64,000 nucleotides of DNA from Pleurocapsa minor GSE-CHR-MK 17-07R (GTDB lineage: Bacteria > Chloroflexota > Anaerolineae > Aggregatilineales > Phototrophicaceae): the NCBI GenBank assembly GCA_019359125.1, contig JAHHHY010000009.1:62001-126000 (forward strand), read 5' to 3'. Positions 22,358 through 38,092 of this stretch are shown here, piece by piece (the stretch's first letter is position 1; every line of letters starts with the position of its first letter). The position numbers and the translations under genes were made by a program. The notes beneath the pieces were generated by a model that was given only the letters and a program-made list of their open reading frames with translations, searched no databases and had not been told where the DNA came from.

Positions 22358-24367
22358 TCAGGATGGTGGCAGTGTGCCAGCGCGCAGCGTCTCCTGCGTG
22401 ACCAGGATATTTGGGCCGTACTGCACGTACTGCGGCGTGGGCGCGCCCGCCATCTGCTGAATGGTCGAAATGTAGAGCAGGCGCGCACCCTCGCTGTGAT
22501 CGAGCGACAGTGATCCGCGAACGAAGCGCCCTGCTTCGATATAAGGGATGATGGAAGCCTCGGCATTCACGCTGAAAATCGAGGTTTGTTCAGGCCCGAC
22601 GCCCGATGCTTCCAGTCCCTCCACCAGCCCGTAGGCCAGCGTGTCCATGCTGCTCAGCAGCACCTGCGGCGGATTACTGGCCTGCTGCACATACGACTGG
22701 ATGCTGCTGCTGGCTGTTTCCTGGGTCAGCGCGTCCACTTCGCCCAGCCAGCGCACCGTCGGCGCATATTCGGCCAGCGCGTCGCGTGCGCCCTGTATGC
22801 GCAGGACGCCCCCGGCATACGCTTGTGGATACACGCCCAGCACGCCGCCGGTGCCGCCCAGCGTGCGGTTCATATACAGCGCGGCAGACAGGCCAATCTG
22901 ATAGCCGATCGCGTAATTCTGGGCATCGAGCTGGGCCCCGTCTTCATAATCGGTCACCGACATGAAGGTCACGGCCTGATTTCGTGCGATGATCCTGTCC
23001 AGCAGCGGGGTCAGCTTTACAGTGTCCAGCGCGCAGATGATGAAGGCACTCGCGCCATCCTCAATGGCCTGTTGCAACAGCGTGACCTGCCGGTCTTCGT
23101 CGCCCTCGCCATCCAGCACGCGCAGGTCCAGGCCATCACGTTCGCTCAGGCCTTCCAGGTCTTCATGTATGCTGCGCTGGATCTCCGACCTGCCAGAGCA
23201 CAGCAGCACCGCGATGTAACCACCACCAAGCTGCTGCCTGACGCGCGCGCGCAGCACATCGAAGGGCGCGAGCGACATGTTCTGGCTGGTGCCGATTTCA
23301 CCTTCAACGACGAGCGGCGGGCGCGTGAACAGGATGAGCAGCGTGACGAGCAGCCAGACAAGCACAGCCGCCAGGCCATAGAGCACGTGACGCACGGTCA
23401 GCCCGCCCGTCTCCGGTGGTTTTACAGGCGTTGACTGCTGCTTTGAGTGATCCAACAGGCGGGCGACGATGTCGTCGCTTTGTACGCCATGACGCAGGCC
23501 GGGGACGGCGCTGGTTTCCGAGGAAATGCCCAGCACTTCCTGCAATTCGTTGGCCATCTGCTCGGCTGTGACATAGCGCGCTTCCGGGTCTTTGGCCAGC
23601 GCCCGCAGCACCACCGATTCCAGCTCGGGCGGCACCTGCGGATTGAAGTCTGCCAGCGGCGGCGGTTGATGATTGACATGCGCGTTCAGCATGCTCATCA
23701 CGTTGTTGCCGGTGATTTCAAACGGGGGGCGGCCTGCCAGCATGTGATAGAGCAGCACGCCCATGCTGTAGACATCGCTGCGGGTGGTGGCCGTCTTGCC
23801 CTGCACCAGTTCCGGCGAGACATACGACGGTGTGCCCACCAGCATGTCGCTTTGCGTGATTTTGGTGCCATACTGCACGAAGGTGGCCAGGCCAAAGTCG
23901 CTCAGGATCGGATTTTTATCTTCGTCGAGCAGCACATTGGCGGGCTTGATATCGCGGTGGATGACGCCGTGCATGTGGGCGTGGCCCAGCGCCCGCGCCA
24001 CCGGCAGAAACAGTTCTGTCGCGCCGCTGACGGAGAACGGCTGTTTGTCTATTTCGTCGGCCAGCGTGCCGCCGGTCACCAGCCGCATCGCCATATAGGC
24101 ATAGCGATGATCGATCATGCCGTAGCCGTAAATTGGCACAATGTGCAGGTGTTCCAGGCCGGCGATAATGCTGGCCTCGCGCTCGAATCGATGCGAGAAT
24201 TCGTCGTGGTTTTCGTTGCTCACATCCAGGTCGACGATCTTTATGGCCAGTATGCGCCGCATCGACACCTGCCGGGCGCGATAAACCACGGCCATTCCGC
24301 CGCGGCCGATCCGCTCGATCAGCTCGAAATCCCCGATCCGCTGGCCAGTCAGATTAATGTCAAACAT
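22358..24367 (-). CDS. Ser/Thr protein kinase - TM - type I periplasmic-binding-protein-like sensor (copy 1)
   Basis: IGRGGMAVVYRA, AIK, HRDIKPANVLLD, DFG; TM HVLYGLAAVLVWLLVTLLILF; C-terminal sugar-binding-protein-like domain. Confidence 0.9.
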   Translation of the reverse strand: MFDINLTGQRIGDFELIERIGRGGMAVVYRARQVSMRRILAIKIVDLDVSNENHDEFSHRFEREASIIAGLEHLHIVPIYGYGMIDHRYAYMAMRLVTGGTLADEIDKQPFSVSGATELFLPVARALGHAHMHGVIHRDIKPANVLLDEDKNPILSDFGLATFVQYGTKITQSDMLVGTPSYVSPELVQGKTATTRSDVYSMGVLLYHMLAGRPPFEITGNNVMSMLNAHVNHQPPPLADFNPQVPPELESVVLRALAKDPEARYVTAEQMANELQEVLGISSETSAVPGLRHGVQSDDIVARLLDHSKQQSTPVKPPETGGLTVRHVLYGLAAVLVWLLVTLLILFTRPPLVVEGEIGTSQNMSLAPFDVLRARVRQQLGGGYIAVLLCSGRSEIQRSIHEDLEGLSERDGLDLRVLDGEGDEDRQVTLLQQAIEDGASAFIICALDTVKLTPLLDRIIARNQAVTFMSVTDYEDGAQLDAQNYAIGYQIGLSAALYMNRTLGGTGGVLGVYPQAYAGGVLRIQGARDALAEYAPTVRWLGEVDALTQETASSSIQSYVQQASNPPQVLLSSMDTLAYGLVEGLEASGVGPEQTSIFSVNAEASIIPYIEAGRFVRGSLSLDHSEGARLLYISTIQQMAGAPTPQYVQYGPNILVTQETLRAGTLPPS

Positions 24368-24421: not shown

Positions 24422-26527
24422 TCAGGATTCGCCCTCGACCGTGCTGCTCACCTGAAGCGAGTCCTGTGTGACGATGCTGCCTGGCGGCACCAGATATGTC
24501 TCCGGCACCACCGTGCCCGCCAGCATCTTCACCAGGGCATTGATCGCCACGATGGAGAAGTCGCGGCGGTTGACCTCCAGCGAGGCGCGAATGTAATAGT
24601 CGTCGCGGATGTACTGCTGCGCGACCGGCTCGGCATCGACGCTGCTGATATACACATCGTCTGGCGAGATGCCGGTGGCCTGCATGGCCTCGATCGCGCC
24701 AAATGCCCCGGCATCGTTGATGCTCAGGATCAGGTTGAATTCCAGGCCTTCTTCGATCAGGCGGGCGATATTGGTGCGCCCGTTTTCGCGCGTCGCGCCG
24801 GGGGTATTGGCCACCACCTCGGCATTCGGCGCCACGCTCAGCATGCCATCGACCAGCCCCTGGGCGCGGTCCATCAGTGTGGGGAAGCTGGGATAATCCA
24901 GCACGATAGCCTGGGCGCTGCCGCCCAGATACCGATTGACAATTTCGCCCCCGGCCATGCCCGCCGCATAGCCCATCTGATAGTCGTCGCCTGCGATCAG
25001 CACGCCGTCGGTGTACATGGGCATGGTGGCGGCCATGTATACGGTGGGGATGCGCGCCTCGCGCAGGGACTCCAGCGCGTTCGCTAGCACGGACGGGTCC
25101 AGCGGGCAGACAATCAGCCCGACGGCGCCGTCGGCCCGCGCGCGCTCGATCAGCGTGAGCTGGAGATAGGGGTCGGCGTTGCCGTCGTATACGCGGTACT
25201 CCAGGCCATAGGCGCGCGCCATGTCACCGATTTCGCGCGTCTGGGTGGCGTGGTAATCGGTACTCTGGGTGCAGGCGACATAGGCGACCATGCCATCTTC
25301 GCCCGCCCGGCGCACCGCAGCATCGATTTCTGCCTGAGTGGGGATGCTGCCCTGCAGGCTGGCCACCTGCCCAACCAGCACCATCGGGCCGGTGGCAGGC
25401 GGATCCGGCTGGGCATTGCCGCGGCCGGAGAGGCCCAGCACGACAGCGGCCACAAGGACCAGCGCACCGGCTATCACAGCCATTTGCACTCGGCGGTCTT
25501 TTTTAAGCAGGTCGCCCACCGTCATGCGCTGCACAGCGGGCGCGTCCGGGGCTTTAAGCGCGGGCGCCTGTGCCGCTATGGTCGGCGGGGAGGCCGGGCT
25601 GACGCTGGCGCTCGCACCGGACTCAACCGGTTTTTCCGGTTTGGGGCGGGGCAGTTTCCCGGTGCTGATTCGTGTTTGCCGCCCCAGCGCATCGTTCAGC
25701 GCCTGGGCCATATCTTCGGCGCGCTCATAGCGGCCGATGCGGTCTTTGTCCAGCGCGCGCAGGATGACATCCTCCAGCGCGGGCGTCACCGCCGGATTGA
25801 TGACCGACGGCGGCACAGGAATCTTTTCCAGATGCTGATAGATGACCGACACCATGTTGAAGTCGTCGCTGTCGAATGGCGGTTTGCCTGCCATCATGTG
25901 GTAGAGCAGCACGCCCATGCTGTAGATGTCGCTGCGCGTATCCAGATCTTCGCCGCGCAGTTGTTCCGGCGACATATAGACCGGCGTGCCGACGATGCTG
26001 CCCGTGCGCGTGATATCCTTTGAGTCTTTCAGCAGCTTGGCCAGGCCGAAGTCGGTCAGATAGGCGTTGCCGCTTTCATCCAGCATGATGTTGCTGGGCT
26101 TCAGGTCGCGGTGAATGACCTCCCGCAAGTGGGCGTAGCCCAGGCCGCGTGCAATCTGCGTGAAGATATCGGCGGCGCGGTTGAATTCCAGCGGCCCGGC
26201 CTTTATCAGGTCGGCCAGACTTCCCCCGCGCAGCAGGCGCATCGCCAGGAACGCGACATCGCCATCCACCACGCCATAGTCGTAAATAGGCAGGATGTGC
26301 AGATGCTCCAGCGACGCGATCAGGTTGGCTTCCTGTTCAAAACGCTGCTGAAATTCATTTTTCTGGTCAAGCGTCGTCGGGTCGAGCGGGATGACCTTCA
26401 GCGCCACATCGCGGTTGACCGAGCGCTGGCGCGCGCGATAGACGGTGGCCATGCCTCCGCGGCCAATCCGTTCTCCCACGACAAAGTCGCGCAGCCGTCT
26501 GCCGATATTTGGGTCGGACGATTGCAT
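24422..26527 (-). CDS. Ser/Thr protein kinase - TM - type I periplasmic-binding-protein-like sensor (copy 2)
   Basis: IGRGGMATVYRA, HRDLKPSNIMLD, DFGLAKL; TM VQMAVIAGALVLVAAVVLGLS; C-terminal RbsB/LacI-type fold pattern. Confidence 0.9.
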   Translation of the reverse strand: MQSSDPNIGRRLRDFVVGERIGRGGMATVYRARQRSVNRDVALKVIPLDPTTLDQKNEFQQRFEQEANLIASLEHLHILPIYDYGVVDGDVAFLAMRLLRGGSLADLIKAGPLEFNRAADIFTQIARGLGYAHLREVIHRDLKPSNIMLDESGNAYLTDFGLAKLLKDSKDITRTGSIVGTPVYMSPEQLRGEDLDTRSDIYSMGVLLYHMMAGKPPFDSDDFNMVSVIYQHLEKIPVPPSVINPAVTPALEDVILRALDKDRIGRYERAEDMAQALNDALGRQTRISTGKLPRPKPEKPVESGASASVSPASPPTIAAQAPALKAPDAPAVQRMTVGDLLKKDRRVQMAVIAGALVLVAAVVLGLSGRGNAQPDPPATGPMVLVGQVASLQGSIPTQAEIDAAVRRAGEDGMVAYVACTQSTDYHATQTREIGDMARAYGLEYRVYDGNADPYLQLTLIERARADGAVGLIVCPLDPSVLANALESLREARIPTVYMAATMPMYTDGVLIAGDDYQMGYAAGMAGGEIVNRYLGGSAQAIVLDYPSFPTLMDRAQGLVDGMLSVAPNAEVVANTPGATRENGRTNIARLIEEGLEFNLILSINDAGAFGAIEAMQATGISPDDVYISSVDAEPVAQQYIRDDYYIRASLEVNRRDFSIVAINALVKMLAGTVVPETYLVPPGSIVTQDSLQVSSTVEGES

Positions 26528-29202: not shown

Positions 29203-30135
29203 TTACTTGAAGTCCATCGCCTGGCGCACGGTTTGCAGCAGCAGCTCGGCGCGCATCTGTGCCAGCGTGAAGCACGGCCCGCCCAGGCGGTCGGCCAGCT
29301 TGGCGGCCAGCCCCTGGTCAAACGCGGCATGCTCCATGTTGATGGTCACCGTCTTGATGTGCTCATATTTATACTGATCGGCGATCAGATGGGCTTCTTC
29401 CTGCGGGGGCCGGTTGCCGACCGAGACATTGCCCGCGCCGTCGGTCAGCACGATCACCAGCGGGATGATATCGGGGTGGATGCGTTTTTCCTTGTGCACC
29501 GTGTCCAGCGCCAGCATCAGCCCGGCAGACAGCGGGGTCTTCCCACCGACGGGAATGGTCACAAGGGCCTGCTTGGCCAGCTGCACGCTGTTGGTGGGCG
29601 GCAGCACGATCTGGGCGCGGTCTTTCTGGAACACGATCAGGCCGACGCGGTCGCGGCGCTGGTAGGCATCGGTCAGCAGGCTCATGATCGCGCCTTTGGT
29701 GGCCGTCATACGCTCACTGACGGCCATGCTCCACGAGGCATCCACCAGGAACAGCACCAGGTTAGAGGTGCGTTTCACGCGCACTTTGCGCTGTAAATCG
29801 CCCATCTTCAAGGCATAGGCCATGCCCGACGCCGCCTTCTGTTCGGCACGTTCGCGCTGCATGGGTGCGGCTGCGCGCAGCGTGGCGTCGAAGGCGATGT
29901 CGTCGGTGCGGCCGTTGGCGGGGCGGGCCATGATATAGCGTCCGCGCTTGCGGTCGGTCTTGGTGCGGCTGCGGCGGCCCGCCTGCTTGCGCATCATCTT
30001 GTCGAGGACGGTGTCCAGCTTGCGCGGGGCAAATTCCTCGCCGGTCTGGGTTTTCTTGCCGCCGTCCCACCAATAGGCGTCGCGGTTGTCAAACACATTC
30101 TGCGGGCCGGGATCCGTCTGGCCGAAGTCAGGCAT
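29203..30135 (-). CDS. Chelatase subunit D-like VWA domain, probably the C-terminal part of a frameshifted chlD
   Basis: LVLFLVDASWSMAVSERM, VVLTDGAGNVSVG; in -1 register with the upstream ORF through an A9 run. Confidence 0.85.
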   Translation of the reverse strand: MPDFGQTDPGPQNVFDNRDAYWWDGGKKTQTGEEFAPRKLDTVLDKMMRKQAGRRSRTKTDRKRGRYIMARPANGRTDDIAFDATLRAAAPMQRERAEQKAASGMAYALKMGDLQRKVRVKRTSNLVLFLVDASWSMAVSERMTATKGAIMSLLTDAYQRRDRVGLIVFQKDRAQIVLPPTNSVQLAKQALVTIPVGGKTPLSAGLMLALDTVHKEKRIHPDIIPLVIVLTDGAGNVSVGNRPPQEEAHLIADQYKYEHIKTVTINMEHAAFDQGLAAKLADRLGGPCFTLAQMRAELLLQTVRQAMDFK

Positions 30136-30155
30136 TTCCTGGTCGCTGGTCGTCG

Positions 30156-31271
30156 CTATGGAGTTGCTTTTTTTTTAGTCGCCTGTTCTTCGCCCTGCTC
30201 ATCCTCGCTGGGTTCGGGGGTGTCGCCCTCGCCCCACTGGCTTTCGGCCTGCTCCAGCTTGCGTTCCATGTCGGTCATCGTCACCTGCGCGTCGGCAAAC
30301 GGGCCGCGCTTCAGGCGGTGCGGGATGGCCAGCTCGAACGCCATCATGATGTCTTCGCGGGTGATGTTGGTGCGCCCCTCGAAGGCAGCGTTGGCGCGGG
30401 CCGTCTTCAGGATCACCATATCGGCGCGGTGGCCGTCGATGTGCATGCTGCTGGTCAGCGAGGCGATGCTGAAGATATCGCGTTTGGTGAAGCGTACGGC
30501 TTCCACCAGCGAGCGACCGGCGGTGATGCGCTCGGCCAGCTTTTCTTCTTCAGGCTGCCAGAAACGGCGGAAGCCCTCGGCGTTGTCTTCATAGGCCATG
30601 TGGCGCTGCACGATTTCCATGCGGTCTGAGGCATCGTGGATGCCGTGCACGTCCACGCTCAGCGCGAAACGGTCGAGCAGCTGCGGGCGCAGGTCGCCTT
30701 CTTCCGGGTTCATCGTGCCGACGAGGATGAAGCGCGCCGGGTGGCTGAAGCTGATGCCCTCGCGCTCGATCACGTTCACGCCCATCGCCGCGCTGTCCAG
30801 CAGCAGGTCGACGACATGGTCGTCCAGCAGGTTGACCTCGTCCACGTACAGGATGCCGCGGTTGGCGGCGGCCAGCACGCCCGGGTCGAAATGGCGTTCA
30901 CCCTTCTGAATGGCTTTCTCGATATCGAGCGTGCCGACGACGCGGTCTTCGGTCGCGCTGACGGGCAGGTCGACAAACGGAATCTTGCGGCGCGAGATGT
31001 GCAGCGTCTCGCCTTTTTCGCTGCGCTCGCGGATGGCATCGCTCCAGGTATCGGGGCGGGCGGGATCGTCATTGAACTGGGATTCGGTAAACACATCCAG
31101 TTCGGGAAGGAGGGCAGCCAGCGCGCGGGCGGCGGTGCTTTTGCCGGTGCCGCGTTCGCCGCGCACCAGCACGCCGCCGATGCGCACATCGACCGCGTTC
31201 AGGATGAGGGCGCGCTTCATCTGGCGCTGGCCAACGATGGCTGTGAATGGATAGATCGGTTGTTTCGCCAT
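30156..31271 (-). CDS. Magnesium/cobalt chelatase ATPase subunit I-like (AAA+)
   Basis: AIVGQRQMKRALILNAVDVRIGGVLVRGERGTGKSTAARALAALLP; YVDEVNLLDDHVVDLLLDSAA. Confidence 0.92.
   Translation of the reverse strand: MAKQPIYPFTAIVGQRQMKRALILNAVDVRIGGVLVRGERGTGKSTAARALAALLPELDVFTESQFNDDPARPDTWSDAIRERSEKGETLHISRRKIPFVDLPVSATEDRVVGTLDIEKAIQKGERHFDPGVLAAANRGILYVDEVNLLDDHVVDLLLDSAAMGVNVIEREGISFSHPARFILVGTMNPEEGDLRPQLLDRFALSVDVHGIHDASDRMEIVQRHMAYEDNAEGFRRFWQPEEEKLAERITAGRSLVEAVRFTKRDIFSIASLTSSMHIDGHRADMVILKTARANAAFEGRTNITREDIMMAFELAIPHRLKRGPFADAQVTMTDMERKLEQAESQWGEGDTPEPSEDEQGEEQATKKKATP
30168..30176 (-). other. Candidate programmed -1 frameshift / transcriptional slippage site (A9)
   Basis: Minus strand ACT AAA AAA AAA GCA (0 frame), shifting to AAA AAA AGC AAC TCC ATA GCG ... 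GAA ATG CCT GAC, in frame with the VWA ORF. Confidence 0.75.
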
Positions 31272-32161: not shown

Positions 32162-32947
32162 TTAGTTCCCGACTGCGCCGAAAGTCGCTTCGGGCGTGCG
32201 TTCCGGCTTCAGGCGCACATCGAAATGTGCAGGAATCACCTTGGCCGTGCGCAGGATCGGACGGGACGGGTCGAAATCGGGATTCTGCCACACGATGCCG
32301 ACGCCGTAATTCAGCGTGCGCGCGTCGTTGAAGTAGTTCGGGATGATGTTATGCACCCGAAATCCCTTATGGAGCTGTTTGGTCAGATTGGTGTCAAAGC
32401 GTTTGCCGTCGATCACATCCTGCACGTACTGCTCAGGCGTGACTTCACTGGCCACCTTGTGGTAGTCGATAATCAGACTGCCGGCGATCATCCCGCGCAG
32501 GTTTAACTGCTTCAGGACGGCAAAACGGGCATCCATGAGCTTGCTGCCCACGCCGCGAGACCGGTATTCGGGAAGCACGGCCGAATCGACGCCGTACATC
32601 CAGTCACCGTCCGGGCGGTGCGTGCTCAGTCAACCATAGTTGGTGGTTTCGTACCAACTGTGCAGCAGGGGCTGCGCGGGGTCAAAATCAACGCGCATCG
32701 CCACGGTATAGCCCACCACGCGATCGGTGGCGCCATCCACGGCAACGTAATGTCCATCGGCGAAATTCGCCAGCTGCGACCGGTAATAATTTACCGAGTC
32801 GGCCACGTCGGCGTCGCTGATGGGGTAGCAGGCGCGGTCCACATCCACAATCTGTGAGATGTAGCGTTCGCTCGTCGGCATAATGGCAATGGGTGCCACT
32901 TCCGTCCTGCTGGTACTGCTCGATGGGGTACTGCGTACCGCTAACAT
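32162..32947 (-). pseudogene. GNAT-family acetyltransferase interrupted by one in-frame UGA (pseudogene or readthrough)
   Basis: ORFs 32630-32947 and 32162-32599 are in the same frame, separated by TGA at 32630-32632; ...YETTNYG*LSTHRPDGDWMYGVDSAVLPEYRSRGVGSKL. Confidence 0.8.
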
Positions 32948-32958
32948 AACTGTCCTTT

Positions 32959-34272
32959 CTACGACACGGATAAAATATCGCGGGCTACGCGCTGGCCGCT
33001 GACAAGCGCGCCATGCACAGTCGCCGCATACAGGTTCGGCGCCGTCGCCTCGCCTGCAAAGTGCAGGCGGCTTCCCCGGTCACCCACGACCGGTGCCGCC
33101 AGAACTTCCCGTAAACCATCCCCCTGCGGCGGAACCGAGCTGTAGCCGCCGAGCGCAAATTCGTCGGCAGTCCAGTTCATGATGCGCGCTTCCAGGGGGG
33201 TTAATGCGGGCTGGTTCAGCTCCCTGCGGAGCGTCTCCAGTCCCAGTGCCAGCGCGCCAGCTTCGCCATCGGCCAGCAGGTCGCGGGCATGATCGCCGGT
33301 GGCGAAGCCCAGCCAGACCTGTTCCTGGTCGGGCGCGCTGTTCGCCTGTGGCGTCCACCACATCGGGGGCAGGCCGTCGGCATACAGGGCAGCGATGCCC
33401 CGTGGCGTGATCGGCCTGGCAAATTTGTAAATCAGCTTGAGGGCAGGGGCCATATTCATGCGCCCGATGGCATCCTGCTTGTCGGCGGGCAGCGCGGGCG
33501 TGAAAGCCACGCGGCCCGCCTTGAGCACCGCCAGCGGCAGCGTCACCACCACGTGATCGGCCTCGAACACATGGCCATCCCCCGTCCGCACATGGGCACG
33601 CGGGCCAGACCAGTCGATTTCGCTGACAATCGTGTTCAGCCGGATATCCAGCCCTGCCGCCAGATGGTCATGCAGCGACAGGTAGCCTTCGGCGATGCGA
33701 TAATCGCCATTCCCGGCCGAGGGCACCGGTGCGTCGCCAAAATAGGGCGCGCTGAAAGACGGCCGCAGCTCCAGGTCCTGCAGGCAGACGATCGCGCTCA
33801 GGCGGTCGGCGGCTTCGCCGGAGGCATTGACCCAGGCGCGGCGCGCATAGCCCAGCGCCTCGTCGTCAAAGCCGATGCGACGCAGGTAGGCATCAAACGG
33901 CTCATCGTCGGGGGCGGGCGGCACGTCTGGCAGGTTCCAGGCGCGCGTGATGTCCCACTTTGCGTTGGTGGCGCGGGCCTCCGTCATGGTGACGAGGCGC
34001 CCGTCAGCTAGCCGCACGAGCGAGTCGTCGGTTTTGGGCCAATGATGAGTTGTCAGGCCGAGCTTGCGAATGAGCAGTCAGGTCGGAGCGTCGGCTCCGT
34101 GGACGAGTTCGGCTCCGAACTCTACAGGGGTGTAGGAGAAGGCCCGTTCGGTCAGAACGCGCCCACCGATACGCCCGCGCGCTTCCAGCACAACCACCTG
34201 ATGCCCTGCCTGATGCAGGTCATGCGCGGTGGCGAGTCCGGCTGTGCCAGCGCCGATGACGACGGTATTCAT
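32959..34272 (-). pseudogene. FAD-dependent amine oxidase interrupted by one in-frame UGA (pseudogene or readthrough)
   Basis: [38 protein letters not shown]...[20 protein letters not shown]...LHFAGEATAPNLYAATVHGALVSGQR; TGA at 34078-34080; single frame otherwise open. Confidence 0.85.
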
Positions 34273-37676: not shown

Positions 37677-37726
37677 GCGACAAAAAAGGGCCTGGCAATC
37701 ACGCCGGGCCCTGAACTGATACCCCC

Positions 37727-38092
37727 GGACAACGCAGGCGTTGTCCCTACAGAGACCGGATGCACCGGAAAACGCTCGTAGGGACGCGGCCTGCCGCGTC
37801 CGCTGGCCCAAAAACCCATCGGTGAAAATGAGGCGCGATCGGACAACGCAGGCGTTGTCCCTACAGAGACCGGATGCACCGGAAAACGCTCGTAGGGACG
37901 CGGCCCGCCGCGTCCGCTGGCCCAAAGACCCATCGGTGAAAATGAGGCGCGATCGGACAACGCCTGCGTTGTCCCTACAGAGACCGGATGCACCGGAAAA
38001 CGCTCGTAGGGACGCGGCCCGCCGCGTCCGCTGGCCCAAAGACCCATCGGTGAAAATGAGGCGCGATCGGATAACGCAAGCATTGTCCCTAC
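37727..38092. repeat. Three exact-length 114-bp tandem units plus a partial fourth, each carrying two inverted GTAG palindromes
   Basis: Unit starts at 37727, 37841, 37955, 38069. Confidence 0.95.

Follow-up and report, generated by a model that had tools for sequence, protein, structure and literature searches.

The window, a 64-kb stretch of DNA, carries on its minus strand a gene for an AAA+-linker-VWA protein (29203..31271); the initial annotation was silent on the strand. The AAA+ (ChlI/BchI-like) ORF runs from 31271 to 30156 and encodes 371 aa including an acidic tail. Its 3' end reads GAA CAG GCG ACT AAA AAA AAA GCA ACT CCA TAG, with the zero-frame stop TAG at 30156-30158 and a run of nine A's (A9; T9 on the plus strand) at 30168..30176 in codon phase 0 (ACT AAA AAA AAA GCA). 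The VWA frame lies in the -1 register relative to the AAA+ frame and is open for 323 codons (29203..30174, minus strand). Upstream it is closed by a TAA at 30175-30177 on the same strand that overlaps the A9 run. A -1 slip at A9 joins the AAA+ ORF to the VWA frame and gives a ChlD-like, TIGR02442-like fusion of 689 aa; the junction peptide of this predicted slipped product spans KKKSNSIATTSDQEM. Translation of the minus strand thus confirmed the ORF endings, the A9 run, the -1 register and the 689-aa fusion that the initial annotation had described. The first ATG of the VWA frame (30133..30135, minus strand) is found 10 codons past the run without a Shine-Dalgarno sequence, and is probably not a start. 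Searching the window with Rfam returned tRNAs only, with no known RNA element at the locus.

Both halves of the protein match the NCBIfam profile TIGR02442, the AAA+ half at model positions 1-354 and the VWA half at 386-640. The fused protein gives a full-length match of 749.8 bits, below the curated cut-off of 779.45, which the in-frame relative L034 clears with 797.9 bits. By fold, the AAA+ part matches ChlI/BchI (8osf, 6l8d, 1g8p) and the VWA part the VWA domain of BchD (2x31). The Walker A motif GERGTGKST (31134..31160, minus strand; residues 38-46) is common to the short and long products and nearly invariant among in-frame relatives (L034 numbering), and the MIDAS motif of the VWA domain, DASWS (29728..29742, minus strand), is invariant among them. 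The catalytic motifs are complete and likewise invariant in these relatives, which suggests that the product is probably an active motor. The D-like product retains a complete AAA+ motor identical to that of the I-like product. Disorder is predicted at residues 347-444 in the model of L034, between the AAA+ lid and the VWA domain, and the model places the A-run in this disordered linker after the lid. Between Walker A and Walker B (about 31100-31030 of the window, minus strand) most families of the class Anaerolineae have four cysteines, CPF.C...C..C, which may form a metal or Fe-S site that certain lineages have lost; the motif is missing in the window's family (f1), f2 and f50, and f9 retains one cysteine.

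The A9 at 30168-30176 is the sole A/T run of at least eight across the window, and the 4.85-Mb, 61% GC genome holds four A9/T9 runs and none longer. Two of the other three read as T9 on the sense strand of a long ORF and the third has no long open frame around it; from these orientations and frames, the window's run is the genome's only sense-strand A9 within a long ORF. The initial annotation had suggested following the run and its register through homologs. In f1, 22/22 sampled genomes carry A9 in an identical codon phase and end the zero frame exactly 3 codons on, despite variation in the flanking codons.

A wider census covered 178 Anaerolineae loci, one per genome, with the class sampled and many of the genomes being MAGs. 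Relative to AAA+, the VWA frame is -1 in 135 loci, in frame in 39 and +1 in 4. An A7-A10 run is present at the junction in 170/178 loci; 356 kb of the same genes hold 12 runs of at least seven A's away from it. Exactly nine A's are found in 93 of the 134 run-bearing -1 loci, and two A10 loci place VWA in the +1 frame. Of the 39 in-frame genes, 33 retain the A-run, and every one of these has its -1 frame stopped within 9 codons, compared with 17% at control positions, so a slip there would yield the short form. The initial annotation had taken homologs in other registers as grounds for abandoning its reading, but in-frame homologs that keep the run and a near -1 stop strengthen the case for two products. 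On an unrooted tree built with FastTree from the AAA+ and VWA domains, with the linker omitted, the frame state switches at least 19 times among run-bearing genes while the run is retained. A natural negative control comes from 11 other Chloroflexota families, from which 23 in-frame relatives all lack any run of six or more A's. In family f71, also outside the class, each of nine in-frame genes has A8-A10 and a -1 stop 1-5 codons away. A run of this kind is therefore not generic to the linker. Within genus g123, loci L034 and L058 (A9) encode the long form in frame and L039 (A10) the short form; their junctions are near-identical, CAAAAAAAAA(A)TCATAACTGA, and the one-A difference swaps the product encoded in the DNA frame.

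These data indicate that one gene probably yields a short AAA+ protein and a long AAA+-linker-VWA protein by slippage at A9, in agreement with the claim of the initial annotation that a single locus supplies I-like and D-like products. The dual-product arrangement, its conservation and the absence of a large subunit (below) are established at the level of comparative sequence analysis. Transcripts with exactly nine A's would be read as far as the nearby TAG, yielding the short protein, and those to which RNA polymerase adds one A (or 1+3n) would enter the VWA frame and give the 689-aa protein. Because the slip would fall within the flexible linker past the AAA+ lid, the same ATPase module would be common to both. 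Presumably the two forms assemble together, within a single ring or as paired rings, by analogy with gamma and tau of the DnaX clamp loader, which have their AAA+ module in common; the number of VWA arms per complex would then be set by the slip rate. Taken whole, with RNA-polymerase slippage at A9 producing both forms, their presumed co-assembly and a non-chelatase complex without ChlH/CobN, this is the account we favour, with some reserve.

The features of the junctions differ with run length. A7 runs occupy the one phase giving exactly A_AAA_AAA in 28/28 cases and the A8 runs of -1 loci are also phase-locked (16/16), whereas the A9 runs of -1 loci are spread over all three phases (38/27/28). 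Counting all A9 loci, the tree shows at least 13 changes of phase; within f1 the A9 phase is fixed. This A9/A7 contrast is partly post hoc, as it was first noticed in 93 loci and then extended. Downstream hairpins are strong at A7, where -1 loci average a z of -3.1, and weak or absent at A9+. Mean z values are -2.1 for A7/A8, -0.55 for A9+ and -0.26 for the control; the contrast has a p of 3.5e-8 across loci and about 0.06 on independent pairs. No hairpin was found at the window's junction (z +0.38/+0.78), and upstream Shine-Dalgarno stimulation showed no enrichment (mean z 0.07). At A9+ sites the +1 frame is closed by a stop within 9 codons in 91/97 of the -1 loci and in 20/25 of the in-frame ones (control about 0.3), and closure of both off-frames has family-level p values of 2e-12 and 1e-4. 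In-frame A7-8 genes have such a +1 stop in 0/8 cases; A7-8 loci in the -1 state also close the +1 frame (25/36), so A9 sites share this closure with others. The window departs from its family in this respect, its +1 stop being 12 codons away, against 9 or fewer in 21/22 f1 members.

In many bacteria runs become slippage-prone for RNA polymerase at a length of nine (PMC1088944), and in Thermus dnaX RNA-polymerase slippage makes tau and gamma, with stops in both off-frames (PMC5009743). Together with A9 runs in all phases, missing hairpins and closure of both off-frames, this favours RNA-polymerase slippage of the Thermus dnaX type at A9 sites, the window's included, as a reading of the comparative pattern; the same pattern favours ribosomal frameshifting at A7/A8 sites. 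The initial annotation considered the two mechanisms inseparable here, which now appears too pessimistic, since phase, hairpins and the comparison of off-frame stops point towards RNA polymerase at A9.

The most serious alternative is programmed -1 ribosomal frameshifting, with a tandem tRNA-Lys slip on A_AAA_AAA and the long product made by shifted ribosomes, the mechanism given in published accounts of fs-chlD (PMC3711429, PMC9227772). Every run-bearing -1 locus holds an in-frame A_AAA_AAA heptamer, and an A9 in any phase contains one, so ribosomes may slip there too. A7/A8 runs are phase-locked in eight families of -1 loci, with strong hairpins at A7. Chelatase cassettes in E. coli shift at 63% (A11), 40% (A9) and 10% (A7), in a protein-level assay that cannot separate ribosomal from RNA-polymerase slippage (PMC3711429). 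However, two A's of an A9 would be superfluous to a ribosomal slip in any phase, yet most run-bearing -1 loci keep exactly nine. Nor does the mechanism account well for a window junction without a hairpin, for the lack of upstream Shine-Dalgarno enrichment, for stops in the +1 frame, to which -1 shifting gives the ribosome no access, or for the two A10 loci whose +1 VWA frame it could not join. We regard ribosomal frameshifting as possible at the window's site, though the less probable of the two mechanisms.

The identification of the locus as a chelatase, made in the initial annotation, did not hold up. In the window's genome, which is 98% complete, CobN/ChlH (PF02514) and CbiC/CobH (PF02570, the sole corrin marker tried) both gave 0 matches; the chlorophyll pathway was judged from the absence of ChlH. 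These results do not support a porphyrin or corrin chelatase role for the product in this organism. The same annotation had proposed looking for a separate chlI and a cobN/chlH, and of these a ChlI-like paralog, 37% identical, is present and CobN/ChlH is not. The VWA gene occurs in 359/401 genomes of the class, and in 239/244 good ones, and the CobN/ChlH large subunit in just 48/401, none of them f1 genomes. An apparent bchI/bchD/bchH set, recognised by homology and position, occurs together in G120, G230 and G282, which keep the window-type gene on a different contig or far from it. No conserved operon partner or neighbour was found in 21 neighbourhoods.

A genuine cobalt- or magnesium-chelatase motor, its large subunit too diverged or located in the missing part of the genome, would fit the closest families and folds, which are those of chelatase subunits, and the presence of CobN/ChlH elsewhere in the class. 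The lack of PF02514 and CbiC/CobH matches in so complete a genome, the absence of f1 from the genomes with a large subunit and the retention of the window-type gene in genomes with apparent full bch sets make this unlikely. By analogy with MoxR-VWA systems, a complex without a ChlH/CobN large subunit is more likely to serve in ATP-driven remodelling or as a metal-dependent activase than as a porphyrin or corrin chelatase.

We also considered two separate proteins, with the VWA protein made by translational coupling or from an independent start at the ATG at 30135, the start whose exclusive use the initial annotation had taken as evidence against its own reading. The ORFs overlap and the ATG follows the run by 10 codons, which would suit such a scheme. 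Nevertheless, no Shine-Dalgarno sequence precedes the window's ATG, where the best anti-SD duplex among the starts is -1.7 kcal/mol. An ATG between the run and the VWA core is present in just 75/134 -1 loci, and any start with a reasonable Shine-Dalgarno in just 25/134. The scheme also explains neither the A-run nor its retention in in-frame genes. An independent start was rejected on the SD-poor starts and the many -1 loci that lack the ATG, and we consider it very improbable.

A separate ChlI was likewise rejected as the source of the short product, such paralogs being 35-41% identical and present in some genomes only. The window-type gene is the sole ChlI-like gene in several genomes, among them the f1 members G203, G164 and G372. 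Run-less in-frame genomes are also without a second ChlI-like copy, and hence without a separate gene to make up for the lost run. The paralog of the window's genome (G000, C22, about 358710-359890, minus strand) is an open frame of 393 aa, 37% identical to the AAA+ part and with no VWA gene adjoining; similar paralogs (35-41%) occur in some relatives and are absent from others.

The weakest alternative, a sequencing or assembly error at the homopolymer in a gene that is truly a single A10 ORF, is ruled out for practical purposes: one base in the run would fuse both frames, and the odd loci L039, L082 and L192 could be such cases, but the error is refuted at the window locus by 22 family members with A9 in the same register, and the -1 register of 134 run-bearing loci from many assemblies and the runs at 170/178 junctions likewise speak against it.

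As the initial annotation had stated, the phenomenon itself is known, and further fs-chlD work was reportedly published by Antonov in 2020 (MBE). Frameshifting in fs-chlD genes was described by Antonov 2013 (NAR) and Kuznetsov 2022 (PMC3711429, PMC9227772). The latter noted that the large subunit is missing in some Chloroflexi (PMC9227772). In the fs-chlD literature, Chloroflexi members without B12/chlorophyll pathways or large subunit are classed as "stage 1" and an intermediate to stage 2. The genes described here share with fs-chlD the overlapping AAA+ and VWA ORFs, the -1 register, the poly-A slip site and the derivation of a small and a medium subunit from one gene. In contrast to those papers, which describe translational frameshifting and take in-frame genes as not frameshifted, we find many in-frame genes that keep the run with opposite polarity, and A9 sites that look frame-blind. 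Thermus thermophilus dnaX is similar in its A9 in an AAA+ gene, a hairpin that is unneeded, both off-frame stops and two products sharing an AAA+ module. Most genes here, the window's included, differ from it in having the short form in the DNA frame, and a minority have the dnaX polarity. Escherichia coli dnaX uses a ribosomal -1 frameshift with stimulators. It resembles the A7/A8 members, with their phase-locked A_AAA_AAA and hairpin at A7, and is unlike the window's A9 site. Mg-chelatase ChlI/ChlD and TIGR02442 proteins share the domain architecture, Walker A/B, sensor 1, MIDAS and the BchI/ChlI fold match. Unlike the Mg-chelatase system, the window's genome is without a large subunit or pathway, and the D-like product here has a complete AAA+ motor identical to that of the I-like product.

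What appears to be new relative to Antonov 2013 and Kuznetsov 2022 is the survival of the slip, despite frame reversals, in seemingly in-frame genes, and the division of sites into frame-blind A9 and phase-locked A7/A8. The broader proposal is that across Anaerolineae and f71 the slip has been kept through reversals and switches between RNA polymerase and ribosome, that in-frame "ChlD" genes are slip genes, and that the product is a near-universal non-chelatase machine; we consider the arguments for and against it evenly balanced. If it is true, two machines would be at work: RNA polymerase, slipping at A9/A10 runs without regard to frame, and the ribosome, shifting at phase-locked A7/A8 runs. 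What are now annotated as plain in-frame ChlD genes would encode a slip with the polarity reversed, and some of them may have been miscounted as single-product; the Chloroflexus "fusion", the earlier non-recoded reference, would possibly be among these genes. The AAA+ machine of nearly all good Anaerolineae genomes would then not be a chelatase. A slip signal that outlives its reading frame would offer a natural experiment in which sequence alone could distinguish slippage by RNA polymerase from frameshifting by the ribosome, and would make testable both the role of a ChlI/ChlD pair without a large subunit and the upkeep of a fixed short:long ratio.

Several other features of the window were recorded. 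Just upstream of the AAA+/VWA gene, two adjoining minus-strand genes each contain one in-frame TGA followed by CTG: a GNAT-like acetyltransferase gene (32162-32947; TGA at 32630-32632) and an FAD amine-oxidase-like gene (32959-34272; TGA at 34078-34080). Relatives keep the TGA in place and conserve the protein before and after it: 12 genomes of the genus do so for the GNAT gene and 6 genomes (plus a fragment) for the amine-oxidase gene, counting the window's own genome in each. TGA-less GNAT paralogs all have Trp at this site, amine-oxidase paralogs have W, H or R, and the genome encodes SelB and tRNA-SeC. Together these observations point either to unusual selenoproteins or to a conserved readthrough in which UGA is decoded as Trp. 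The sole convincing tRNA-Trp (cca) that ARAGORN predicts in G000 (contig position 30564-30635) has an unusual short D arm, a second prediction looking like a false positive; this odd tRNA might bear on the two UGA sites. Adjacent long ORFs at 22358-24367 and 24422-26527 (minus strand), read by eye in translation, resemble a serine/threonine kinase fused to a periplasmic sugar-binding-like sensor. Beside a gene end at 37726-38092, a 114-bp unit is repeated in 3.2 copies with 96% identity.
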